64,000 nucleotides of DNA, taken from positions 292,226 through 356,225 of the forward strand of contig CP029803.1 in assembly GCA_003226295.1 (NCBI GenBank), read 5' to 3'. The notes below the pieces were generated by a model that saw only the letters and a list, made by a program, of their open reading frames with translations, ran no database searches and was not told the origin of the DNA. Origin of the DNA: Candidatus Moanabacter tarae (GTDB lineage Bacteria > Verrucomicrobiota > Verrucomicrobiia > Opitutales > UBA2987). Of this stretch, positions 1,655 through 41,305 are shown in pieces. A program made the translations under genes and the position numbers. Positions within the stretch are counted from its first letter, which is position 1. Each line of letters starts with the position of its first letter.

Positions 1655-1762
1655 TTAATAACGACCCTGATATTTTCCAGGTTTGAGGTTTTGACAGATG
1701 AATCGAAGTATTGAAGATTTTTGAAAGATCCGGGACATTCTTGTCCAAAAAACAACACTACC

Positions 1763-3214
1763 ATGGTTGAAAAATCTGTTCCGCACGAAGTTATCCCGTC
1801 TGATAATCTACCACCAGTTCGCTACCGTGATTTGCCGGAAGCTCCGTCATGGCGAAAACTGGTGGGACCGAGCGTATTGCTCTTAGGTTTGGCTTTGGGT
1901 AGTGGTGAGTTTGTGCTCTGGCCGTTTATCACCTATAAATATGGATTCACTATTTTCTGGGCCTGCATGTTGGGAGTGACAACTCAGTATTTCATTAACA
2001 TGGAAGTTGAGCGTTGGACTTTGGCAACAGGTGAGACCGCTGTGATCGGCTTCTGCCGACTTTGGAAACATTGGGCGTGGATCTTTCTCCTCTGCAATGT
2101 AATACCATGGATGTGGCCAGGTTGGGCATCGGGTGCAGCTACTCTCTTGACCTGGGAAATTGGCGGAGGTGAGGGAGTACGGGTTTTATACTCTATTTTG
2201 AGTTTGATCGTCGTAGGGTTGGCTCTGACTTTAGGACCGGTAGTTTACAATACCGTCGAGAGAATCCAGATGGTTCTGGTTGGCACGGTCATGGTGTTTC
2301 TCTTTGTGCTCTTTTTCCTCCTGGTTGATCTTGTTCATGTGGGAGATATGCTGAGAGGGATAGCCAGCATCGGTACCATTCCGGAAGGAATCAATACGCA
2401 ACTATTGCTAGGTGCGGTTGCGTTTGCCGGGGCTGGAGGGACGATGAACTTGGCGCAGAGTGATTTTTTGAGAGATAAGGGCTATGCCATGGGTGCCTAC
2501 ATTGGGCGTTTAACGAGTCCTTTAACCGGAAAGAAGGAAGTTGTTTCCGATATTGGCTATCATTTTGAACCTACTGAGGAGAATATCAACCGTTGGCGGG
2601 CCTGGTGGAAAGCAGCCAACGCAGAACATTTGATCACCTTCTTTCTCCTTTCCGTGCTTTCTCTTATGTTTCTCTCCCTTATTGCCTATGCAACCACTAG
2701 TGGGGAGCCTGGTTTGGAGCAGGGAATGGGGTTTATTGCTGTTCAAGGAGATTACATTGGTGCGCGATATGGGGGATTCTTTCGACATTTCTTTCACTGG
2801 ATGGGGATCGCTATTCTACTTACCACGGAACTGGGTATTCTCGATGCCGGAGCCCGGATTTCCTCGGACATTATTAAGGTTAACTGGTTGCGAAATAATG
2901 AAAAATGGACAGACGAACGGCTTTATTTTATTCTTCTTTGGGGTCAGATTGGATTAGGCTGTCTGATCATGATCCTAGGGTTGGTGATTGAGGGATTTAA
3001 TCAACCGCTTGTCCTTCTCGTTCTGAGTGCATCTCTAAATGGGGGAGTAATGTTGGTCTATTCGATCCTTCTTTTTTGGATGAATAACCGTGTTCTTCGT
3101 GGGCCGGTTGGAATGGGATTAATGCGTAAAATCGCGATTCTTTGGGCGTGCGGGTTCTTTGGCTTCTTTACCATTATGACGTTGATGGATCAACTGCCGA
3201 AATTGTGGAGGTAA
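1763..3214 (+). CDS. NRAMP-like transporter, GxGE variant
   Basis: This 483-residue polytopic membrane protein is distantly related to the divergent neighbour. I prefer the ATG at 1763 (MVEKSVPHEV) to an in-frame TTG at 1721, because the extra 14 residues look random and neither has a ribosome-binding site. Helix 1 reads GPSVLLLGLALGSGE, with GSGE (residues 46-49) in place of the metal-coordinating DPGN of NRAMP carriers. A helix-6-like segment contains GAGGTMNLAQSDF instead of an MPHN motif. A hydrophilic cytosolic loop with many charged residues follows (KKEVVSDIGYHFEP region). About eleven helices are apparent. Substrate unknown; a cation or a small organic solute is possible. Confidence 0.82.
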   Translation: MVEKSVPHEVIPSDNLPPVRYRDLPEAPSWRKLVGPSVLLLGLALGSGEFVLWPFITYKYGFTIFWACMLGVTTQYFINMEVERWTLATGETAVIGFCRLWKHWAWIFLLCNVIPWMWPGWASGAATLLTWEIGGGEGVRVLYSILSLIVVGLALTLGPVVYNTVERIQMVLVGTVMVFLFVLFFLLVDLVHVGDMLRGIASIGTIPEGINTQLLLGAVAFAGAGGTMNLAQSDFLRDKGYAMGAYIGRLTSPLTGKKEVVSDIGYHFEPTEENINRWRAWWKAANAEHLITFFLLSVLSLMFLSLIAYATTSGEPGLEQGMGFIAVQGDYIGARYGGFFRHFFHWMGIAILLTTELGILDAGARISSDIIKVNWLRNNEKWTDERLYFILLWGQIGLGCLIMILGLVIEGFNQPLVLLVLSASLNGGVMLVYSILLFWMNNRVLRGPVGMGLMRKIAILWACGFFGFFTIMTLMDQLPKLWR

Positions 3215-3302
3215 CAGTAATTGAGGAGGGAAAGGACAACTGGGAGGTAGGATAGGAGAGAGACAGGGTATTCGAATACAATATGAATTGTGATTGCCTC
3301 GA

Positions 3303-10846: not shown

Positions 10847-10972
10847 AAGTTGGAAGTAACGGTGATCTCTAGCCAGCGTCATAGTCTTTTAATCTTCCCT
10901 CATGATTGAGGTATATGATATGAGACCTGGTTGTCTTTACTTAAGCCTCAAATAATTAAATTATTTCAGACG

Positions 10973-12808
10973 ATGTCCGACAAACGATCTACTTTTCTTG
11001 CTGAATCTATCACCTCCCCTCCGGATTGGGCGATAAGAGAGCGTCATCTCATACGGACAATGAACGAGGCAGCGCCCGTCTTCCAGTGTCGTTATACCCG
11101 AGCCGATGGAACCTTTGTCTGGCGCGAAGATTGGCCGGGAATGGATGGTTCAGACGATGGGTACGAGAGTTATCACAATTGGCCACTTTTTTATTCCCTT
11201 GGCGGCTCTGATAAGCTCCACGAAGAAAGCCGTTTCCTTTGGGAGTCTGTTACCCGTCAGTTTACTGAGTACGGTCAGGTATACAGAGAGTTCGATGCCT
11301 ATTATGATTGGATGCATCACGGTGAATCATCGATCTACTTTTACTATTTCGGCCTTGCTGATCCGAACCGTGAGCCGGATCGGTCAAGGGCGCTTCGTTT
11401 TGCTGGGTTTTACACTGGTGATGACCCTGATGCATTGAATTGGGACGCTGATAAGCGAATGATCCGATCCCCGATCAATGGTAGCCGCGGACCCCGGTTC
11501 GAAAACTCATGGGACGATTGGGCGACCCACCGATGGATTCTGGCCAACTATCCAGTTCCGTTTGATGACCTAGATGTTCCAACAACTCCACGTACGGGGT
11601 CTGAGGATACTGTCCGGATAGCTGATTGGAACGATGATGCGGTGTTCGAAGTTATCTTGAAAGCTCTTAATGACAGGCAGATGCGTTGTGATGTGCCCCT
11701 CAACTTGACCTGTACAAGTCTTGTCTCGCATGCTTACATATTAACCGGAGAAGATCGTTATCGAAGGTGGGTTCTCGACTATCTAGAGGCTTGGGCGGGC
11801 CGAATCAAAGCAAACGATGGGATTTGTCCGGATAACGTCGGTCCTTCGGGCCAGGTGGGTGAGACGATGGATGGTAAGTGGTGGGGTGGTTATTACGGAT
11901 GGCGCTGGCCTCATGGATTCATGTCGATTATCGAACCACTTACCATAGCGGCGATGAATGCAGTTCTTCTGACTGGTGACCTAACCTATCTTGATATCCC
12001 GCGTGGTCAACTCGATCGTATTTTAGATCTTGGTCGTGAAGAGGAAGGGAGGCTCATGGTTCCCTATCGTCATACCGACGAAGGTTGGACTTCCTATAGA
12101 CCCCTTTCACCACACCACGCGGCACAAATCTGGTACCTGTCACAGGAGGAAGGGGACCGGGAACGTCTCGAACGGATTCCCGAAACACAGACCGACTGGT
12201 TGGAAGTTAAACCCGGGAGAGGTAAAGGAGATGACATTCATTTTGGTCCTTGGTATTGCTATCTTGATGGCCGTAACGAGGATTACCCGGCTAAGATTCT
12301 TGATCAGCAGTACGCTGAAGTTTTAAGGCGGATGGATGCAATTCGCAATGATCATGGCGATCCCGAATCGTGGGACGTTCACCATTGGCAGGATCATAAC
12401 CCTGTTCATACTGAAGCGCTCTTACAGCTTACTTGTGGAGGGCCGCAGATCGTTTATCACGGGGGCCTGTTGCATGTTCGGTTGCGCTACTTCGATGGAG
12501 AACGAAATCGACCTGGTCTTCCGGACGGAGTGGCTGCGCTTGTGACACAAATGGATGCTGAGAGTACAACGGTGAAATTGGCCAATATCGACACGGTTGA
12601 GACTAGACAATTAATTCTACAGGGTGGCGCTTTTGGCGAACATCAGATCACTACTGTAGAGACTATCAATAGCCCAGACTGTACTAGAAGGGTCGTGGAT
12701 GTAAATTCATCTTGTTTTAGTGTAGAGCTACCTCCTGGTAGAAGCCTTGGATTGAAGATCGGAACGGAACGTTTTAGTCGTCGTCCCACATATGTCCAAC
12801 CAGTTTGA
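10973..12808 (+). CDS. Uncharacterised 611-residue protein, possible (alpha/alpha)-barrel carbohydrate-active enzyme
   Basis: I do not recognise a named family. The ATG at 10973 (MSDKRSTFLAES) is preferred to a TTG at 10931. There is no signal peptide, so the protein should be cytosolic. The first 480 or so residues are rich in Trp, Tyr, His and Asp, with helical repeats reminiscent of an alpha/alpha toroid (WPLFYSLGGSDKLHEESRFLW, TCTSLVSHAYILTGEDRYRRW, GGYYGWRWPHGFMSI). About 90 C-terminal residues look like a beta-sandwich (VELPPGRSLGLKIG). This combination is common in glycosidases and polysaccharide lyases. Catalytic residues cannot be assigned. It may follow proS but has its own 126-base leader. 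Confidence 0.75.
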   Translation: MSDKRSTFLAESITSPPDWAIRERHLIRTMNEAAPVFQCRYTRADGTFVWREDWPGMDGSDDGYESYHNWPLFYSLGGSDKLHEESRFLWESVTRQFTEYGQVYREFDAYYDWMHHGESSIYFYYFGLADPNREPDRSRALRFAGFYTGDDPDALNWDADKRMIRSPINGSRGPRFENSWDDWATHRWILANYPVPFDDLDVPTTPRTGSEDTVRIADWNDDAVFEVILKALNDRQMRCDVPLNLTCTSLVSHAYILTGEDRYRRWVLDYLEAWAGRIKANDGICPDNVGPSGQVGETMDGKWWGGYYGWRWPHGFMSIIEPLTIAAMNAVLLTGDLTYLDIPRGQLDRILDLGREEEGRLMVPYRHTDEGWTSYRPLSPHHAAQIWYLSQEEGDRERLERIPETQTDWLEVKPGRGKGDDIHFGPWYCYLDGRNEDYPAKILDQQYAEVLRRMDAIRNDHGDPESWDVHHWQDHNPVHTEALLQLTCGGPQIVYHGGLLHVRLRYFDGERNRPGLPDGVAALVTQMDAESTTVKLANIDTVETRQLILQGGAFGEHQITTVETINSPDCTRRVVDVNSSCFSVELPPGRSLGLKIGTERFSRRPTYVQPV

Positions 12809-34472: not shown

Positions 34473-35411
34473 ATGTCAGATAGGGTAGTTTATTTTAACG
34501 GAGATTTTATTTCCGAGAAGGAGGCTCGGATCTCTATATTTGATTGTTCCCTCTTGTATGGAGATATGGTGTTCGAAATGACGCGCACTTTTAATCAAAA
34601 ACCCTTTCGGCTGCGCGAACACCTTGAGCGACTCTACGCTTCGATGCTTTATGCCGAGATTGATTGCGGCCTAACGATCGATGAAATGGAGAGGGTAACT
34701 TACGAGACGATTGATCGGAATCGCCCCACATTGAATGGATGTGACATTCAGATTATGCACGATGTGACTCGCGGTGGAATGCCTCTTTACGAAAGTATCG
34801 TCAAAGAGGGTACCCGGCCAATTATCTCAATAAACGTCTTTCCGTTGATTCGGCACACGGGAGGGCAGGCAGAGGCATACGAAAGAGGATCCCATTTTGT
34901 GGTAACGCCACAGCAGTCGGTTCCCGCACGTTATATAGATCCAAAAGCGAAGAATCGAAGCCGCATATTCTACAAGATCGCTGAGCTCCAAGCAAACCAT
35001 ATGGAAAACGGTGCTCAAGCTCTACTTACCGATGAACGGGGATATATTACCGAAGGAACAGGAAACAATTTCTTTATGGCACGTAATGGGATTATTTATA
35101 CTCCCAAACCTCATGATATTCTTCGGGGAGTTTCCAGAGGCGCTTGTATGGATCTGGCTAAATCCCTTGATATCGAAGTTCAGGAAACTGATATTGAACC
35201 TTACGATGTCCGGATAGCTGATGAAGCTTGGTGGACCAGCACTACGGTTTGTATGGTACCCATTACCCGGTTTAATTTTTATCCGGTTGGGGATGGAAAG
35301 CCAGGGCCGATTTACCGGAGATTATTGGCCGCTTGGTCCGAGGAAGTGGGTGTCGATATCGTTGCCCAGGCCAGGGAATATGCGGAGATTGGGAAAAATT
35401 GGAAACCGTAG
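34473..35411 (+). CDS. Class IV PLP aminotransferase (BCAT / D-amino acid transaminase fold)
   Basis: This 312-residue fold type IV PLP enzyme matches branched-chain, D-alanine or aminodeoxychorismate lyase relatives. The start reads VVYFNGDFISEKEARISIFDCSLLYGDMVFEMTRTFN, including the class's FD..llyGDgvFE element. The PLP lysine is in DPKAKNRSRIFYK, and TEGTGNNFFMA is the phosphate-side loop. It follows dgcA by 82 bases on the same strand. A D-amino acid transaminase that feeds D-glutamate to DgcN would explain the cluster, but BCAT activity cannot be excluded from sequence. Confidence 0.88.
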   Translation: MSDRVVYFNGDFISEKEARISIFDCSLLYGDMVFEMTRTFNQKPFRLREHLERLYASMLYAEIDCGLTIDEMERVTYETIDRNRPTLNGCDIQIMHDVTRGGMPLYESIVKEGTRPIISINVFPLIRHTGGQAEAYERGSHFVVTPQQSVPARYIDPKAKNRSRIFYKIAELQANHMENGAQALLTDERGYITEGTGNNFFMARNGIIYTPKPHDILRGVSRGACMDLAKSLDIEVQETDIEPYDVRIADEAWWTSTTVCMVPITRFNFYPVGDGKPGPIYRRLLAAWSEEVGVDIVAQAREYAEIGKNWKP

Positions 35412-35490
35412 CTACTTCCTCTTTATTATCCGGCTGATGAAACAGAGGTATTTATGGTCGGCTTCTTCAGCTTCAAATATAAAATCAGCG

Positions 35491-36579
35491 CTACTGTGAG
35501 GCGTCTTCGGCCGTAAGATTCAGATGGATGTCGAGTGGCGTTGAAACCGGAGCTTCGTCGCCGTTGGGCCGCCCATCCGAATTAGTTGTCCATGTCCATA
35601 TACGCCATAGCCGCCGCTCACCAGTGTTAAACGCCTCGCGGGAGTGCAGAACACGGTAGTTATCGACACAGACGGCCTCACCCTTTTCTAGCCGGACCCG
35701 ACCAGCAATCTCTGACTCTGCGTGGATGGCAATGTCAACTCGTCGTAGCATTTCCTCGGGTGTGATTTTGGCGCCGAGCTCGGCCGCCATGGTACGGGTC
35801 TCAGGCATGACGGCCCAGCAACTGCGTGGGATGGGAACGGCTTGCATGTCCTCCCTTGTCTGCATCTGGTCCTTCCCAAGCATACGCTTCCACTGCAGCC
35901 GGCCATCTGGTCGGCGCACGAAAAGCGGTCCCTTTGAGCTTCGCCCTTGGAATATTCCTCCGTTCGCGGCACTCTCAGTCTGATCATACACTAGGGTATT
36001 AAGCAGCGGCAGTAGGTTGGCAGCATCGGGGTCGGCAGACAGCCGCTCGAGTACCGCCTCTCCGTCCACGAAGAACGACTCGCCACCGGTGTTTGCCTGC
36101 TGCTCAACAAGCAGGAAGAGGTAGTCAGGTACATGGTCGCCGTACACATAACCATCCGTGTGCGGGTTCTGCCGTAAGCCCCGTATCCAAGGAATCTTGG
36201 TGAAGTGTGGCAGCCCCTCTTGCTCCGCTTTCGCGAGCAGTTCATCCTCCGCTGCCTTGCTGAGCACGGCGCCTTCCTTTCCGTACGCGGCTTGCAGGGT
36301 CTGCAGCTGTTCCAAATGGGCGGACTCATGGTGAAGACAAGCCACTGGCGGCTCGCCTGGTATCAAATTAGTGTCGCCGAGGCAAAGCGCTGGTAGGTCT
36401 CCTGCGATGTTCTCCCAGTAGCCCGGCGAGTGCTCGTCGCCTGGTAAGTTGGTGAGGATAACTACACCGTCGCGCTTCAGAGCATCCTTGATAGAGCCCC
36501 GGTCGGATATCGACACGCGCGCCGTATTGGGGAGAATACGGTTGCTCATCGGACTAGATTTCGACGGAACGAAAGGCAT
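35491..36579 (-). CDS. TauD/TfdA-family Fe(II)/2-oxoglutarate dioxygenase
   Basis: This 362-residue dioxygenase of the TauD/TfdA/gamma-butyrobetaine-hydroxylase type has the HxD pair in NPHTDGYVYGDHVPDY, the distal histidine in RVLHSREAF and the 2-oxoglutarate-binding arginine in RRLWRIWTW. TGGESFFVDGEAV is another family hallmark. Start at 36579 or at the second Met (36549). Two hand-counted 60-base lines give 58 and 63 percent GC, compared with 37 percent in a line from dgcA, so it looks recently acquired. It is convergent with the aminotransferase and lies at the edge of the GC-rich block. Substrate unknown. Confidence 0.88.
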   Translation of the reverse strand: MPFVPSKSSPMSNRILPNTARVSISDRGSIKDALKRDGVVILTNLPGDEHSPGYWENIAGDLPALCLGDTNLIPGEPPVACLHHESAHLEQLQTLQAAYGKEGAVLSKAAEDELLAKAEQEGLPHFTKIPWIRGLRQNPHTDGYVYGDHVPDYLFLLVEQQANTGGESFFVDGEAVLERLSADPDAANLLPLLNTLVYDQTESAANGGIFQGRSSKGPLFVRRPDGRLQWKRMLGKDQMQTREDMQAVPIPRSCWAVMPETRTMAAELGAKITPEEMLRRVDIAIHAESEIAGRVRLEKGEAVCVDNYRVLHSREAFNTGERRLWRIWTWTTNSDGRPNGDEAPVSTPLDIHLNLTAEDASQ

Positions 36580-36988
36580 TTCTTTAACGCTGATTTTCTC
36601 ACACTGATTTTCACACTAGACAATACTAAATATAGGGAACCCTATGCCGAGGGCTACTTTATCGCATAATAGGAAAATGAAGGAGAGACAGGGAGATTCG
36701 AAACTCGGATGAAATGCAGGAGCGAATTCATGTGCCTATATTATTATAATCCAAATAATTATAATTCATAGCCAAGCTTGAAAGACTACGTAATTCTTGA
36801 CCGTATATCTTTACCGAAATCTCGATTTGGAAACATCCGAAGATCATATTAGATGGTGTCCTTCAAAGATCATACGGGAAGATAGAGCAAGAAGACTGAT
36901 CTCTTCTAAAATAAACTAAGATCGCGCAGCGCTTTTTGCATGAGCTTCTCGAGTTTGATAAGGATCTTTAAACCTGACTCACCCGGAG
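36580..36988. other. AT-rich intergenic gap with tRNA-like repeat
   Basis: This 409-base AT-rich gap lies between two GC-rich minus-strand genes. It contains a short dyad ATAGGG/CCCTAT at 36632-36645, upstream of the dioxygenase, and the tRNA-Ser-3'-end-like sequence at 36673-36708. A GACTC/GAGTC dyad (36974-36988) adjoins the sulfatase stop, but no T-run accompanies it. No gene was recognised. Confidence 0.5.
36673..36708 (-). repeat. Degenerate copy of the tRNA-Ser 3' end and flank, candidate att site
   Basis: Compared with 40311-40345, both sequences share the leading GAAAATG, then GGAGAGA, then AGGGA, then TTCGAA and a closing CGG, in the same order and nearly the same spacing. Differences are a GC/AA change, a G/C change, a two-base insertion before TTCGAA and a changed C-run. 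The shared part includes the seven bases just 3' of the tRNA, which argues against chance T-arm similarity. It would be an old attachment-site remnant. Confidence 0.45.
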
Positions 36989-38560
36989 TCATACGTAACG
37001 AACAGCCTCTTTCTGCACGCGACACTTATCGAACCAGTCCGTCCAAAGCCGATCGAGCTCCGCAACCAAATCCGGGTGTTTTGTTGACACATCGTTGGTC
37101 TCGCAGCGGTCGGCTTCTGTGTCGTAGAGTTCCCATCCATCGTGGCCCGCGGAAATGTAGTGGCCGGTATGCGCTCTCTCTGATCCCAGACTGACAGCCT
37201 TCCAACGCCCTTTTCGGACAGCGCGACATCCTCGTATCTCCCAGAAAAGTGCTTCATGGCCCTGCCGTTCCTCCCCGCAAAAAATCGGTACCAGACTCGC
37301 CCCATCGTGGGGATGTATATCGTTCCCATTGTAGCGTTCCGGATAGACAGTACCCGCCACTTCCACAAACGTGGGAAGGAAATCGATAACATGGCCGACT
37401 TGGTCTGTAATGGTGTCTGCAGCGATTATCCTCGGCCAGTATGCGATCAACGGAGTAGCGATGCCGCCCTCATGGTCAAAAACTTTGTATTTGCGGAATG
37501 GGGTATTGCTGGCGTTGGCCCATGGCGCATCGACGGTAGTATAGGTGTCAACGCTTCCGGGCGCCTTGCCCGGCGAGTGATCGATATGCTCTCCGCAGGC
37601 ACCGTTGTCGGAGAGAAATAGTACGAGTGTATTCTCTTCTTTCCCAAGCGCTCTGATCTTTTTGAGTACCCTCCCGATTCCCGCATCCATTCGGTCGATC
37701 ATTGCCGCATACACAGCCATCTTCCTGTCCCATCGCTTCTTATCTTGTGTTTCGTCCCAGGACGGATTGATGGCATCGCGATCAGAGAGACCCCAGTGCT
37801 CTTTAGCAAGGCCCAGCTCAACCAGCTGCTTGCTTCGCCTACGTCTGATCTCATCCCAGCCAATCATATAGCGCCCTTCGTATCGTGCGATGTCCTTAGA
37901 CCTGGCATGCAGTGGGAAATGGGGGGCGGTATAGGGGAGGTAGAGGAGAAAAGGTCGTTTCTCCTCACCATATTGATCAAGAAACGATAACGCCTTGTCT
38001 GTAAATGCATCAGTCGCATAAAAGTCAGGATCGCTAGGCGTAAATTGTTTCAGCACCGTTTCCTCATCACACCAATCCCTGTAATCATGCAGTGCCTTGT
38101 GCACCGGCTCAGATTCGCCCGCCCTCTGAGTGCCTGGATTGAAATAGTTGCTGCATCCGGATAGCAGTCCCCAATAACGGTCAAATCCTCTATCGACTGG
38201 AATCTCTCCTCGTACCGGTCGGTTGTGCCATTTCCCTGATATGAGTGTGCGATATCCTGATTCTCTTAGAATCTCAGCAAATGTTACATTGTTTCCGCCT
38301 GCGCGCAACCCGCCGCCCAGAGGGGATAGTCCGACTCTGTGGCAGTATTGGCCGGTCAAGAGTGAAGCTCGTGTGGCGACACACACCGCATTATTGTAGA
38401 AATGAGTGAATCGTAATCCACCCGAGGCAAGACGGTCGAGGTTCGGGGTTGATATCTCGCCACCGTAGCAGCCCAAATCGCTAAAGCCCATGTCGTCCGC
38501 CATGATTAGTACGATATTTGGCCTTTCGGCCGATGGGAATGCAGCTCTTTTCGTCATCAT
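36989..38560 (-). CDS. Sulfatase (formylglycine-dependent, S1 family)
   Basis: This 523-residue arylsulfatase-type hydrolase of sulfate esters carries calcium ligands Asp22-Asp23 in MADDMG. The activation motif is CVATRASLLTG with Cys60, which conforms to C-x-(P/A)-x-R but departs from the usual C-x-P-S-R. Other active-site pieces are SGKWH and LSDNGACGEH. The protein starts MMTKRAAFPSAERPN with no signal peptide, unusual for a polysaccharide sulfatase that works outside the cytoplasm. GC-rich codons match the surrounding block. No FGE/anSME maturase is visible in the window. A broken second sulfatase lies immediately upstream. Confidence 0.92.
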   Translation of the reverse strand: MMTKRAAFPSAERPNIVLIMADDMGFSDLGCYGGEISTPNLDRLASGGLRFTHFYNNAVCVATRASLLTGQYCHRVGLSPLGGGLRAGGNNVTFAEILRESGYRTLISGKWHNRPVRGEIPVDRGFDRYWGLLSGCSNYFNPGTQRAGESEPVHKALHDYRDWCDEETVLKQFTPSDPDFYATDAFTDKALSFLDQYGEEKRPFLLYLPYTAPHFPLHARSKDIARYEGRYMIGWDEIRRRRSKQLVELGLAKEHWGLSDRDAINPSWDETQDKKRWDRKMAVYAAMIDRMDAGIGRVLKKIRALGKEENTLVLFLSDNGACGEHIDHSPGKAPGSVDTYTTVDAPWANASNTPFRKYKVFDHEGGIATPLIAYWPRIIAADTITDQVGHVIDFLPTFVEVAGTVYPERYNGNDIHPHDGASLVPIFCGEERQGHEALFWEIRGCRAVRKGRWKAVSLGSERAHTGHYISAGHDGWELYDTEADRCETNDVSTKHPDLVAELDRLWTDWFDKCRVQKEAVRYV

Positions 38561-39078
38561 CTATTCTATCAGCTAATCCGGTTTAAGACACAACCCACAA
38601 GACCAATTGTTGTGTTTTCGCATGAAAAAACAATCCGAGATTGACCTATTCACTCAAATACCCCCAACGGAGCCTCTGCCCCGCCCGGTTTATTTGCTGT
38701 ACCTCCCGAGTTGACTGATTTTCAGCTTCTCGAATCCACGTCTTTAAACGTTCGAAACTCACGGGCCGTAGGGCCTAGCACAATGAACAGTCGGGTCCGA
38801 TTGAAACCAAGGACAAGCCTGAGCGGCAGATAGGGATAGCGCTGATATCCCTGTGCCGACGTCGGAACCATTGGTCACGCATCGTCAGTATCATAAAGCG
38901 AACAATCCGACCGAACTCCTTAAGCCACCACTTCGAGCCAGGCCGTCAAGGACAGGGGTACGGACTATCGACTTGCCGCTGTAGCTGAGAGCGCCTGATC
39001 GCACATGATCCAGGCGATGTTGGGTCGTGCCATTACTGGGGAGTCGGATAGATAGTGGGTTCCGGTTCCTGTTGAATT
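38561..39078. other. 518-base gap between sulfatase and lactonase genes
   Basis: Besides the sulfatase remnant at 38893-39033, this stretch shows no intact gene. The part from 38620 to 38890 has open minus-strand pieces without a family I recognise and may hold further gene debris. Confidence 0.45.
38893..39033 (-). pseudogene. Sulfatase gene remnant (frameshifted and truncated)
   Basis: Translated from the ATG at 39033 the minus strand gives MARPNIAWIMCDQA, a textbook sulfatase N-terminus with its metal Asp. It then hits a stop, while a neighbouring frame continues as ALSYSGKSIVRTPVLDGLARSGG, matching the next conserved stretch (ScYG.p.vRTPnlDrLA..G). So a frameshift, probably with a small deletion, lies near 38990, and everything after the first helix, including the formylglycine cysteine, is gone. 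The sequence differs from the intact sulfatase downstream, so it is a separate gene and not a local duplicate. Confidence 0.7.
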
Positions 39079-40242
39079 TTAGTGAGTTGACTTTGGGAGT
39101 GCCCAAACGGATGACACCGTTGGAAATTCTAAGCGTGCTGCTGATAAGTTTAGCAGTCCGGTGGGTGCATCTCGCCGAAACACCACCACGCTGTCTGGGC
39201 CCGTCTCATTCGCCCGAGTGTGATTATTTTGTACTACTATAAAGCGGCCGTCTTCGCTCAAACAAAACACCCAAGGAATTCGGCCCCGTGTTGGCTCAAA
39301 CTGCAATGGCGTAAGTGTTCCGTCCAATGCATTTATTTCAAAAACTGCAATTGAATCATGTCCGCGGTTGCTGGCGTATACAAAGCGATCATCAGGCGAG
39401 AGCAGTAACTCGGAAGCATGCGAAGGCTTGGAGTAAACTTCGTTTGGGAACGTCGCAGGGTCAGCGTGGGCCTCGGCCCATCCTTGTGGCAACGAGGAAA
39501 GAGTCTGGACCAGCGAGAGTTTCCCTGCCTCAGCAGCTTCACGTCGTAACACACAGAGCGTATTATCAAGTTCATTTAGAACAAATCCCAAATCACCACT
39601 ACGCGTGAACTGGATGTGTCGAGGTCCCGCAAGGTCGTGTAATGTGATGGCGCTTGAAGGGCGCAGCATATGATTGTCAAAATCGATGGTCCAGCAGACG
39701 ACCTGATTCGTACCCAGGTCCGCTACGTAGAGCTGTCCGCCACATACTACTACTCCGTGAGGGTGTGCTGACTCTTGCCGGAATTTTGGTCCATCGCCCC
39801 AACTTCCAGTAACACCGTCATGAGCTCCTGGACCATGAGAATAAACCCTCCCCTCAACTAGAGCACCATCCCCGGAGATAGGCATCAAAGACACTGTGCC
39901 GCTGCCATAATTTGCTGTAAATAATAGACGGGCAGTGCTATCTGTACACAAATGTGAGGCGCCGTTGCTGCCCGTTGGAGCATTACCGCATAACTCTACC
40001 TTTCCGTCGTCACCAATCGAGAACCACGATATGTCCGCGCCACTCGTAGCGTAGAGAATATTCTTTCCAGATAGTGTTTGGGTAACAGTCAGATATCCAG
40101 GGGCAGTACTAGGTAACCCTGTCGTGCTCACAACGCGAATTTGACTACCATTCGAGTCGAGTCGGCACGTGTACAGTGTGCCGCCATTCTTGTGCTGACC
40201 ACCACCCGCTGCCACGCAGAAGTCGTAATATGGCTGTGTCAT
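39079..40242 (-). CDS. YbhE/Pgl-type lactonase, seven-bladed beta-propeller
   Basis: This 387-residue protein resembles the lactonase family that includes 6-phosphogluconolactonase of the YbhE type. Blade-like repeats include GYLTVTQTLSGKNILYATSG, TDSTARLLFTANYGSGTVSLMPI, SAHPHGVVVCGGQLYVADLGTNQVVCWTID, DLAGPRHIQFTRSGDLGFVLNELDNTLCVL and LSPDDRFVYASNRGHDSIAVF. The AHPHG and conserved Asn/Asp motifs of the propeller are present. There is no signal peptide. It is GC-rich, and its start is 77 bases from the tRNA-Ser 3' end, so it is the gene next to the presumed integration point. Hydrolysis of a sugar lactone is the likely activity. Confidence 0.88.
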   Translation of the reverse strand: MTQPYYDFCVAAGGGQHKNGGTLYTCRLDSNGSQIRVVSTTGLPSTAPGYLTVTQTLSGKNILYATSGADISWFSIGDDGKVELCGNAPTGSNGASHLCTDSTARLLFTANYGSGTVSLMPISGDGALVEGRVYSHGPGAHDGVTGSWGDGPKFRQESAHPHGVVVCGGQLYVADLGTNQVVCWTIDFDNHMLRPSSAITLHDLAGPRHIQFTRSGDLGFVLNELDNTLCVLRREAAEAGKLSLVQTLSSLPQGWAEAHADPATFPNEVYSKPSHASELLLSPDDRFVYASNRGHDSIAVFEINALDGTLTPLQFEPTRGRIPWVFCLSEDGRFIVVQNNHTRANETGPDSVVVFRRDAPTGLLNLSAARLEFPTVSSVWALPKSTH

Positions 40243-40315
40243 ATTAGTATTCTACTTTAGGTTGCCTCCTGTTTTAAACTACTTAGAGATTCCACTCTAT
40301 CGAATAAGGGGAAAA

Positions 40316-40405
40316 TGGCGGAGAGAGAGGGATTCGAACCCCCGGTACCCTTTCGGGCACTCCGGTTTTCAAGACCGGTGCAATCGGCCGCTCTGCCATC
40401 TCTCC
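40316..40405 (-). tRNA. tRNA-Ser (anticodon UGA)
   Basis: Read on the minus strand the gene begins GGAGAGATGGCAGAG and ends with TCTCTCC-G-CCA, so the seven-base acceptor stem is perfect and CCA is encoded (40316-40318). The anticodon arm is CGGTCTTGAAAACCG with anticodon TGA. A long variable arm follows, as expected for serine. The T-arm has TTCGAAT. About 87 bases plus CCA. It is intact and presumably functional; its 3' end borders the GC-rich block. Confidence 0.97.
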
Positions 40406-40810
40406 AAATTGAATGTCAGGTTAGAAAATCTAGCTTGGGAATAGGGGTTGTATTGTCAGCATAATTTTCTGGTTAATCAATATGACTAAACTCTGCGGAG
40501 AGGTAGACAGCAATTGAGTCATAAGGTGAGAGAACTAAAGAGCCAGGGATAACATGAGGAAAATCGGGAATTATTTGGTTAAAGTCCTTAATGGTGCTCA
40601 GTGTGACTTTACGACCGAGGTCCCATGTTTGTCCGATTATCAGCTACTTGAAGAGATAAAGTTTCGCGTTTTAGGATTGTAATGAAACTATTGTAAAAAC
40701 TTTACTCTTATAATTGATTTTCCCTCAGCCCGAGATTAAATTTTACACAGAAGAGCGCCGCCTTTCCGTGGTTCCGGCTGCAAAGGGGGCGTATAATTGG
40801 CGTTAATTTT
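40406..40810. other. 405-base intergenic region upstream of the NYN gene
   Basis: This region should hold the tRNA-Ser promoter, reading leftward, and the promoter of the NYN-domain gene. One small ORF at 40554-40682 encodes 42 residues (MRKIGNYLVKVLNGAQC...), without similarity that I recognise; it may be chance. No repeat or terminator was recognised. Confidence 0.4.
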
Positions 40811-41305
40811 TTGGTGACAACTGAACATCTTTTAGTTGACGGGTACAATGTTATCCACGATTGGCCCGAAATGCGAGAGGCGATGAAGAAGGATGTCAAC
40901 ATTGCGTGTCAGAACCTGGCGGATAGGTTGCGTATTTTACACGACTTTGAAGGTATCAGGGTTACTATAGTATTCGATGGCCGAGGAGAGGGTGTGGAGA
41001 TCCTTCGTCCTGGTAATGAACAGACCTTCTCCCTCGTCTATGCTCCTGGTAACAGTAGCGCGGATGAGATCATCATCCAATTAGTCCAAATCTCGAAGAA
41101 TCCTAACAAGTTGACCGTAGTTTCGAGAGATCATATTATCAGAAATTTGGTGCGAGAGGATGGGTCTAAACTCCATACTCCAAGTGACCTTTTGGCTAGG
41201 ATAGAGGCTTGTGAACGGAGACAGAGTCAAGCGCTGTATCGGCGTAATCGAGAGGTTGAAAAGGAATGGAAGGAGACGGAAAGAGACGGGGAAGAAGTCG
41301 AATAA
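40811..41305 (+). CDS. NYN-domain (YacP-like) RNA-processing protein
   Basis: This protein of about 164 residues has the PIN-like NYN fold of YacP/Rae1-type ribonucleases. It opens HLLVDGYNVIHDWPEM, with the first metal Asp, followed by VTIVFDGRGEGVE and YAPGNSSADEIIIQL, which supply the other acidic residues, and TVVSRDHIIRNLVREDG. The C-terminal tail is highly charged. Bacillus Rae1 cleaves ribosome-bound mRNA; function here is inferred from family only. The start is uncertain: TTG at 40811 or GTG at 40814, without a clear ribosome-binding site. Confidence 0.85.
   Translation: MVTTEHLLVDGYNVIHDWPEMREAMKKDVNIACQNLADRLRILHDFEGIRVTIVFDGRGEGVEILRPGNEQTFSLVYAPGNSSADEIIIQLVQISKNPNKLTVVSRDHIIRNLVREDGSKLHTPSDLLARIEACERRQSQALYRRNREVEKEWKETERDGEEVE

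Follow-up and report, generated by a model that had tools for sequence, protein, structure and literature searches.

A direct repeat of a tRNA-Ser(TGA) 3' end in Candidatus Moanabacter tarae as a probable relic of integration

The 3' end of the tRNA-Ser(TGA) gene of Candidatus Moanabacter tarae, together with the sequence that follows it, is repeated 3.6 kb downstream of the gene in the same orientation, and this direct repeat is real and far above chance. The two copies, of which the distal one is here called the ghost, enclose two intact genes, encoding a sulfatase and a lactonase. We consider the ghost and the segment it bounds to be, on balance, a decayed and now immobile scar of integration at tRNA-Ser, from which the integrase was later lost and in which two cargo genes were kept. 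The scar is perhaps one of two successive insertions. The window, the whole stretch of 64 kb that was analysed, corresponds to positions 292226–356225 of the single-contig genome (2,633,965 bases), and ARAGORN, run over all of it, found one tRNA gene, tRNA-Ser(TGA) with an encoded CCA. The features in and around the segment, in window positions, are:

35491–36579, minus strand: TauD/TfdA-family dioxygenase gene, outside the ghost (Pfam TauD; GC 0.583, GC3 0.642)
36656–36702, minus strand: ghost copy, a decayed and putatively displaced tRNA-Ser 3' end with flank; left (distal) end (alignments; BLASTN)
36989–38560, minus strand: intact sulfatase gene, 523 aa, putative cargo (Pfam Sulfatase, 6.4e-56; GC 0.531, GC3 0.55)
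38915–39033, minus strand: what may be left of the N-terminal part of another sulfatase, with a broken reading frame (seen by eye, without support from profile searches)
39079–40242, minus strand: intact gene for a lactonase-type 7-bladed propeller protein, 387 aa, putative cargo, adjoining the tRNA 3' end (Pfam Lactonase, 1.6e-67)
40294–40338, minus strand: repeat copy at the tRNA gene, from the T-loop TTCGAA to the CCA plus 22 bp of 3' flank (40294–40315) (local alignment; BLASTN)
40316–40405, minus strand: intact tRNA-Ser(TGA) gene with encoded CCA; the regenerated target and right (proximal) end if integration is the correct reading (ARAGORN; Rfam tRNA, 57.7 bits)

Because the tRNA gene is on the minus strand, its 3' end points left and an element inserted there would lie to its left. 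The displaced fragment would then be at the far end in the same orientation, which is where the left copy sits. The ghost falls between the ORFs at 35491–36579 and 36989–38560 and is not inside a Pfam domain. A local alignment of 36656–36702 with 40294–40338 (score 28.5) has 47 columns, of which 38 are identical and seven mismatched, the rest being a single 2-nt gap. The gap is an insertion in the ghost relative to the tRNA copy, and identity is about 80 %, not exact. A preliminary description had placed the shared tRNA-Ser end at 36673–36708 and 40311–40345. A direct repeat is indeed present from 36673, but its extent had to be revised, as it reaches 17 bp further out, a continuation first shown by a global alignment, and the similarity ends at the TTCGAA of the T-loop, with the final CGG contributing nothing clear. 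Of the seven bases that had been assigned to the outside of the tRNA, GAAAA lies there while TG is part of the encoded CCA, and the 17 additional bp follow beyond GAAAA. Over the whole flank outside the tRNA gene, 18 of 22 bp agree between the copies.

Some other short features were seen around the ghost. When 35400–40900 was searched with Rfam for another known RNA at this position, the only three matches fell on the tRNA gene. Next to the ghost, at the inner edge of the segment, an AT-rich 14-mer is present twice at 36740–36768 (ATTATTATAATCCA and ATAATTATAATTCA, starts 15 bp apart), and a short direct repeat (CTGATTTTCTCACA, CTGATTTTCACAC) is found at 36590–36617, upstream of the TauD-family gene.

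Neither Pfam nor PHROGs identified an integrase in either of the intact ORFs of the segment, and no integrase remnant was detected by Pfam in 10 of the 38 intergenic pieces, where the one match (E 0.14) was meaningless. When the whole genome was searched for the recombinase families PF00589 and PF00239, the latter was not represented and the former yielded two proteins, both Xer-like and both outside the segment. One of these passes the NCBIfam cut-off for XerD, and the other matches XerC best but falls below the XerC cut-off. According to the Islander account, islands that depend on Xer enter dif sites rather than tDNA sites (PMC4383910), which makes the Xer-like proteins poor candidates for an integrase acting here.

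This outcome is also what would be expected if no integrase had been involved, that is, if the tRNA end and its flank had been duplicated, for example as a truncated tandem tRNA-Ser, and the genes gained by ordinary recombination. The 22 bp past the end of the gene would be expected from a plain duplication too. On the other hand, the similarity stops sharply at the T-loop and alignment of both copies gave no clear trace of other parts of the tRNA to the right of 36702, while the part of the gene that is preserved, its side and its orientation are those of an attachment-site fragment. Duplication is thus a possible explanation of the repeat, and a rather unlikely one.

The preliminary description had asked for alignment statistics against shuffled sequence, and in these the repeat was rarely matched by chance. 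With the originally proposed 36-nt query (40311–40346) the ghost had a local score of 19.5. When the whole window was dinucleotide-shuffled and scored on both strands, 1 of 500 trials came up to this value, against none of 500 for the 10.3-kb neighbourhood and none of 2000 in a later run on the 10 kb beside the tRNA. Shuffling the query itself gave a maximum of 19.0 in 3000 trials, and under three other scorings the ghost score was reached in 2, 2 and 0 of 1000 shuffles. Among 500 random 36-mers from the window, one had a partner scoring at least 19.5. For the extended repeat, at 28.5, no shuffled sequence did as well, neither in 2000 trials with the 10 kb next to the tRNA (mean 14.6, maximum 22.5) nor in 300 with the whole window.

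The outward extension is an independent test, as it played no part in the original choice of the site. Over the 17 bp beyond the repeat as first drawn, 13 match in register, and only one other place in the window, not fully intergenic, does equally well. Counted outward from 36672, with the number of equal or better window places in brackets, the agreement was 9/12 (34), 11/15 (12), 13/17 (1), 14/19 (2), 14/21 (8), 14/24 (37) and 15/30 (210). The lengths were chosen by us and the best of them, 13/17, overstates the case. BLASTN with 61 nt of tRNA end and flank found the ghost at E 4e-7, the next match being at 0.03. With the tRNA gene alone and settings near but not identical to those of Islander, the ghost (36702–36682, tRNA positions 68–86 of 90) was found at E 0.59–1.6, level with noise, and the case for it therefore rests on the flank. 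When 36650–36730 was used to search its own genome the tRNA copy was not among the matches, presumably lost in the first look of the search.

A chance resemblance between a purine-rich intergenic stretch and the tRNA end, with the neighbouring genes acquired independently, would account for the noise-level rank of the ghost in BLASTN with the gene alone. The site was also picked by eye, and one in 500 window shuffles or random 36-mers does as well with the short query. Set against this are the independent extension by 17–22 bp, the shuffles in which the extended score was never reached and the BLASTN match obtained when the flank was included, as well as the location of the copy on the right side and in the right orientation. 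We regard coincidence as improbable.

Further copies in the window were rejected. A weaker copy at 3255–3276, previously put forward as the trace of an older insertion, scored 14.5 with the 36-nt query, a value reached in 213 of 500 window shuffles and hence at chance level. Compared with the ghost itself it scored 15.0, which was equalled elsewhere in the window on the opposite strand, and with the extended query it was absent among the window places with a score of at least 18. An outer copy to the left of the TauD-family gene was also sought, and the best candidate (11.5, at 35376) lies inside an aminotransferase ORF.

The other tRNA genes of the genome were examined in 40 stretches of 20 kb around tRNA genes, in which ARAGORN found 44; Rfam found 43 in the genome. 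Forty-one genes with at least 9.5 kb on each side were tested over about 10 kb, the other three being dropped for short flanks. When the query consisted of the final 30 nt of the gene and 6 nt beyond it, tRNA-Ser(TGA) had a downstream match in the same orientation scoring 20.5, the next gene reaching 14.5 and the three control classes a maximum of 17.0. When about 30 nt of flank were included the scores were 28.5 for tRNA-Ser(TGA), 21.0 for the next in the class and at most 17.5 in the control classes. Only tRNA-Ser(TGA) among the 41 has a copy of such score within 10 kb, and the uniqueness of this copy is a further point against plain duplication.

Weaker and heavily gapped downstream matches were seen for tRNA-Arg(CCG) (21.0, L110 7575), tRNA-Met(CAT) (19.0, L112 80) and tRNA-Thr(CGT) (18.0, L099 13405); when the neighbourhood of each was shuffled 300 times, these scores were reached 0, 2 and 1 times, respectively. 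These three, the best after tRNA-Ser(TGA), all belong to the downstream same-orientation class, where attachment-site fragments would lie. They are probably chance matches among 164 comparisons.

In related genomes, no downstream copy scoring above 13.5 was found for 11 tRNA-Ser genes (nine TGA and two CGA) from nine other genomes of the family and order, out of 52, in up to 10 kb of downstream sequence, two of the genes having just 0.5 and 1.8 kb. The nearest genomes compared were from the same family. In three family members the YacP gene and tRNA-Ser(TGA) are on separate contigs, and synteny with these three is not kept in the stretches seen. A polyphosphate kinase query against the genome contigs found 29 loci, with identities of at most 52 %.

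The repeat had been described as bounding a 3.6-kb segment with a sulfatase, its broken relative and a lactonase. The sulfatase and lactonase genes are present and intact, and it is the broken relative that could not be substantiated. Its evidence is two short stretches in two frames (MARPNIAWIMCDQ, RTPVLDGLARSGG) recognized by eye at about 38.9–39.03 kb, where a profile of 20 sulfatases gave only E values of 0.14 and 2.2 and Pfam detected no sulfatase. A remnant of a second sulfatase at 38915–39033 is plausible. Each of the intact genes has a match among PHROGs families whose function is unknown (E 4.4e-53 for the sulfatase and 5.8e-24 for the lactonase), meaning that relatives exist in phage genomes; this is compatible with carriage by a phage but does not establish it. 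The sulfatase has matches in 87 of 132 genomes of the order, including all three other family members, and 16 in its own genome; the best by E-value (52 % identity) is from another family of the order. As sulfatases are common in the order, the presence of one says little on foreign origin. The lactonase had no match in the three family members and no relative among viral contigs. Some match to it was found in 54 of the 132 genomes of the order, its own included, the best having 35 % identity (E 5.5e-37), and its own genome contains five further, weaker matches. The two genes between the copies were probably acquired. Elsewhere in the window, two long ORFs at 1721–3214 (497 aa) and 10931–12808 (625 aa) had no Pfam or PHROGs match at the cut-offs used.

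The composition of the segment was compared with sample windows drawn from the stretches around tRNA genes, which partly overlap one another. At 0.508, the GC content of 36709–40310 exceeds the sample mean of 0.463, and 2 of 400 sample windows were at least as high, one of which was the segment's own (1 of 390 outside its own stretch). The GC3 of the lactonase gene, 0.466, is ordinary. It is the TauD-family gene, beyond the ghost, that looks most foreign. Its GC and GC3 are the highest of the 44 ORFs tabulated, and with its own stretch left out, none of the 1365 sample windows had as high a GC. It has a match in one of 131 other genomes of the order, with no relative in viral contigs and no plasmid match. 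The foreign-looking block, 35491–40242, has a GC of 0.525, which was not reached by any of 280 sample windows. As this block takes in the TauD-family gene, the ghost is not its outer edge, an arrangement that speaks for the duplication explanation. The TauD-family gene is likely to be a separate acquisition; it either arrived earlier at the same tRNA gene and was pushed outward, or came by another route.

A more far-reaching proposal is that the lineage gains metabolic genes as small integrase-free units, inserted serially at one tRNA-Ser (TauD, then sulfatase–lactonase) by an integrase from outside the chromosome, with decaying tRNA ends left between them. We put this forward as speculation with little chance of being correct. 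About as doubtful is a cargo-only unit moved by an integrase acting from elsewhere (satellite or tycheposon-like), as opposed to an element that lost its own. Two intact genes in 3.6 kb, a tRNA-bounded repeat and the lack of an integrase remnant in the 10 intergenic pieces scanned would suit it, but the PF00589 proteins found in the genome are only Xer-like, the ghost is decayed, the unit looks fixed and, in the 10 kb around each of the 41 tRNA genes tested, no second clear unit was seen.

The proposed identity of the ghost as a left attachment site is accordingly retained in part. The side, the orientation, the part of the gene preserved and its singularity are the features that fit a displaced attachment-site fragment, whereas no integrase was found and the TauD-family gene lies outside the ghost. 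In the integration reading, which we favour, a DNA element would have entered the 3' end of tRNA-Ser(TGA) by recombination of the tyrosine-integrase type, bringing with it a copy of the tRNA end, from the T-loop to the CCA and about 22 bp beyond, that restored the gene at 40316–40405. The original end would have been moved 3.6 kb away and, released from selection, may have decayed there to about 80 % identity. With the integrase subsequently lost, what remains would be a fixed cargo unit in which the sulfatase and lactonase genes are still intact. The TauD-family gene may have reached this site first and been displaced outward by the later insertion, an order of events that we infer.

Insertion targeted to tRNA genes is an ordinary and already known route of gene acquisition. 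If the integration reading is right, such an acquisition can be recognized even after the integrase has been lost and the fragment has decayed, provided that the 3' flank is included in the query. The sulfatase and lactonase would then be an old acquisition that has been kept, in a genome where only Xer-like integrases were found.

Several known systems share parts of this arrangement. In mycobacteriophage Ms6 the attB site is in the T-loop of a tRNA-Ala gene and integration occurs at the 3' end of the gene, as proposed here, though the Ms6 system, as set out in the relevant part of its description, is a functional phage system (PMC1762012) while the tRNA-Ser site is probably only a relic. Tycheposons likewise carry metabolic cargo beside a tRNA gene. 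As they are briefly described in PMC10872708, they are 4–200 kb long and combine a tRNA gene with a tyrosine recombinase, whereas the segment is 3.6 kb with no such recombinase found, which places it outside that definition. The additive flexible island of Ca. Methylopumilus contains repeats of the last 20 bp of tRNA-Lys, and there, as here, partial tRNA copies mark acquired cargo. In the passage on that island the repeats recur (PMC10872708), while here there is a single decayed copy and no second joint was found to the left of the TauD-family gene.

The closest comparison is with the tDNA islands of Islander, whose signature, in the portion of the account that defines it, is a tDNA and a displaced fragment with the island between them (PMC4383910). 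Of the 3919 tDNA islands enumerated there, 3760 have a 3' fragment and 1836 are in the T-loop/T-stem-junction class (PMC4383910). An intact tRNA gene at one end and a displaced 3' fragment at the other, on the expected side and in the expected orientation, are common to those islands and to the segment, as are a length within 2–200 kb, a site in the T-loop region and a fragment outside ORFs (PMC4383910). The differences are that the fragment here is decayed, carries a 2-nt insertion and does not rise above noise when BLASTN is run with just the tRNA gene, and that no non-Xer tyrosine integrase was found in the segment. Islander requires an integrase there, and its filter would reject the segment for that reason (PMC4383910). 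The segment is therefore not a tDNA island by the Islander definition, but it resembles the relic of one.
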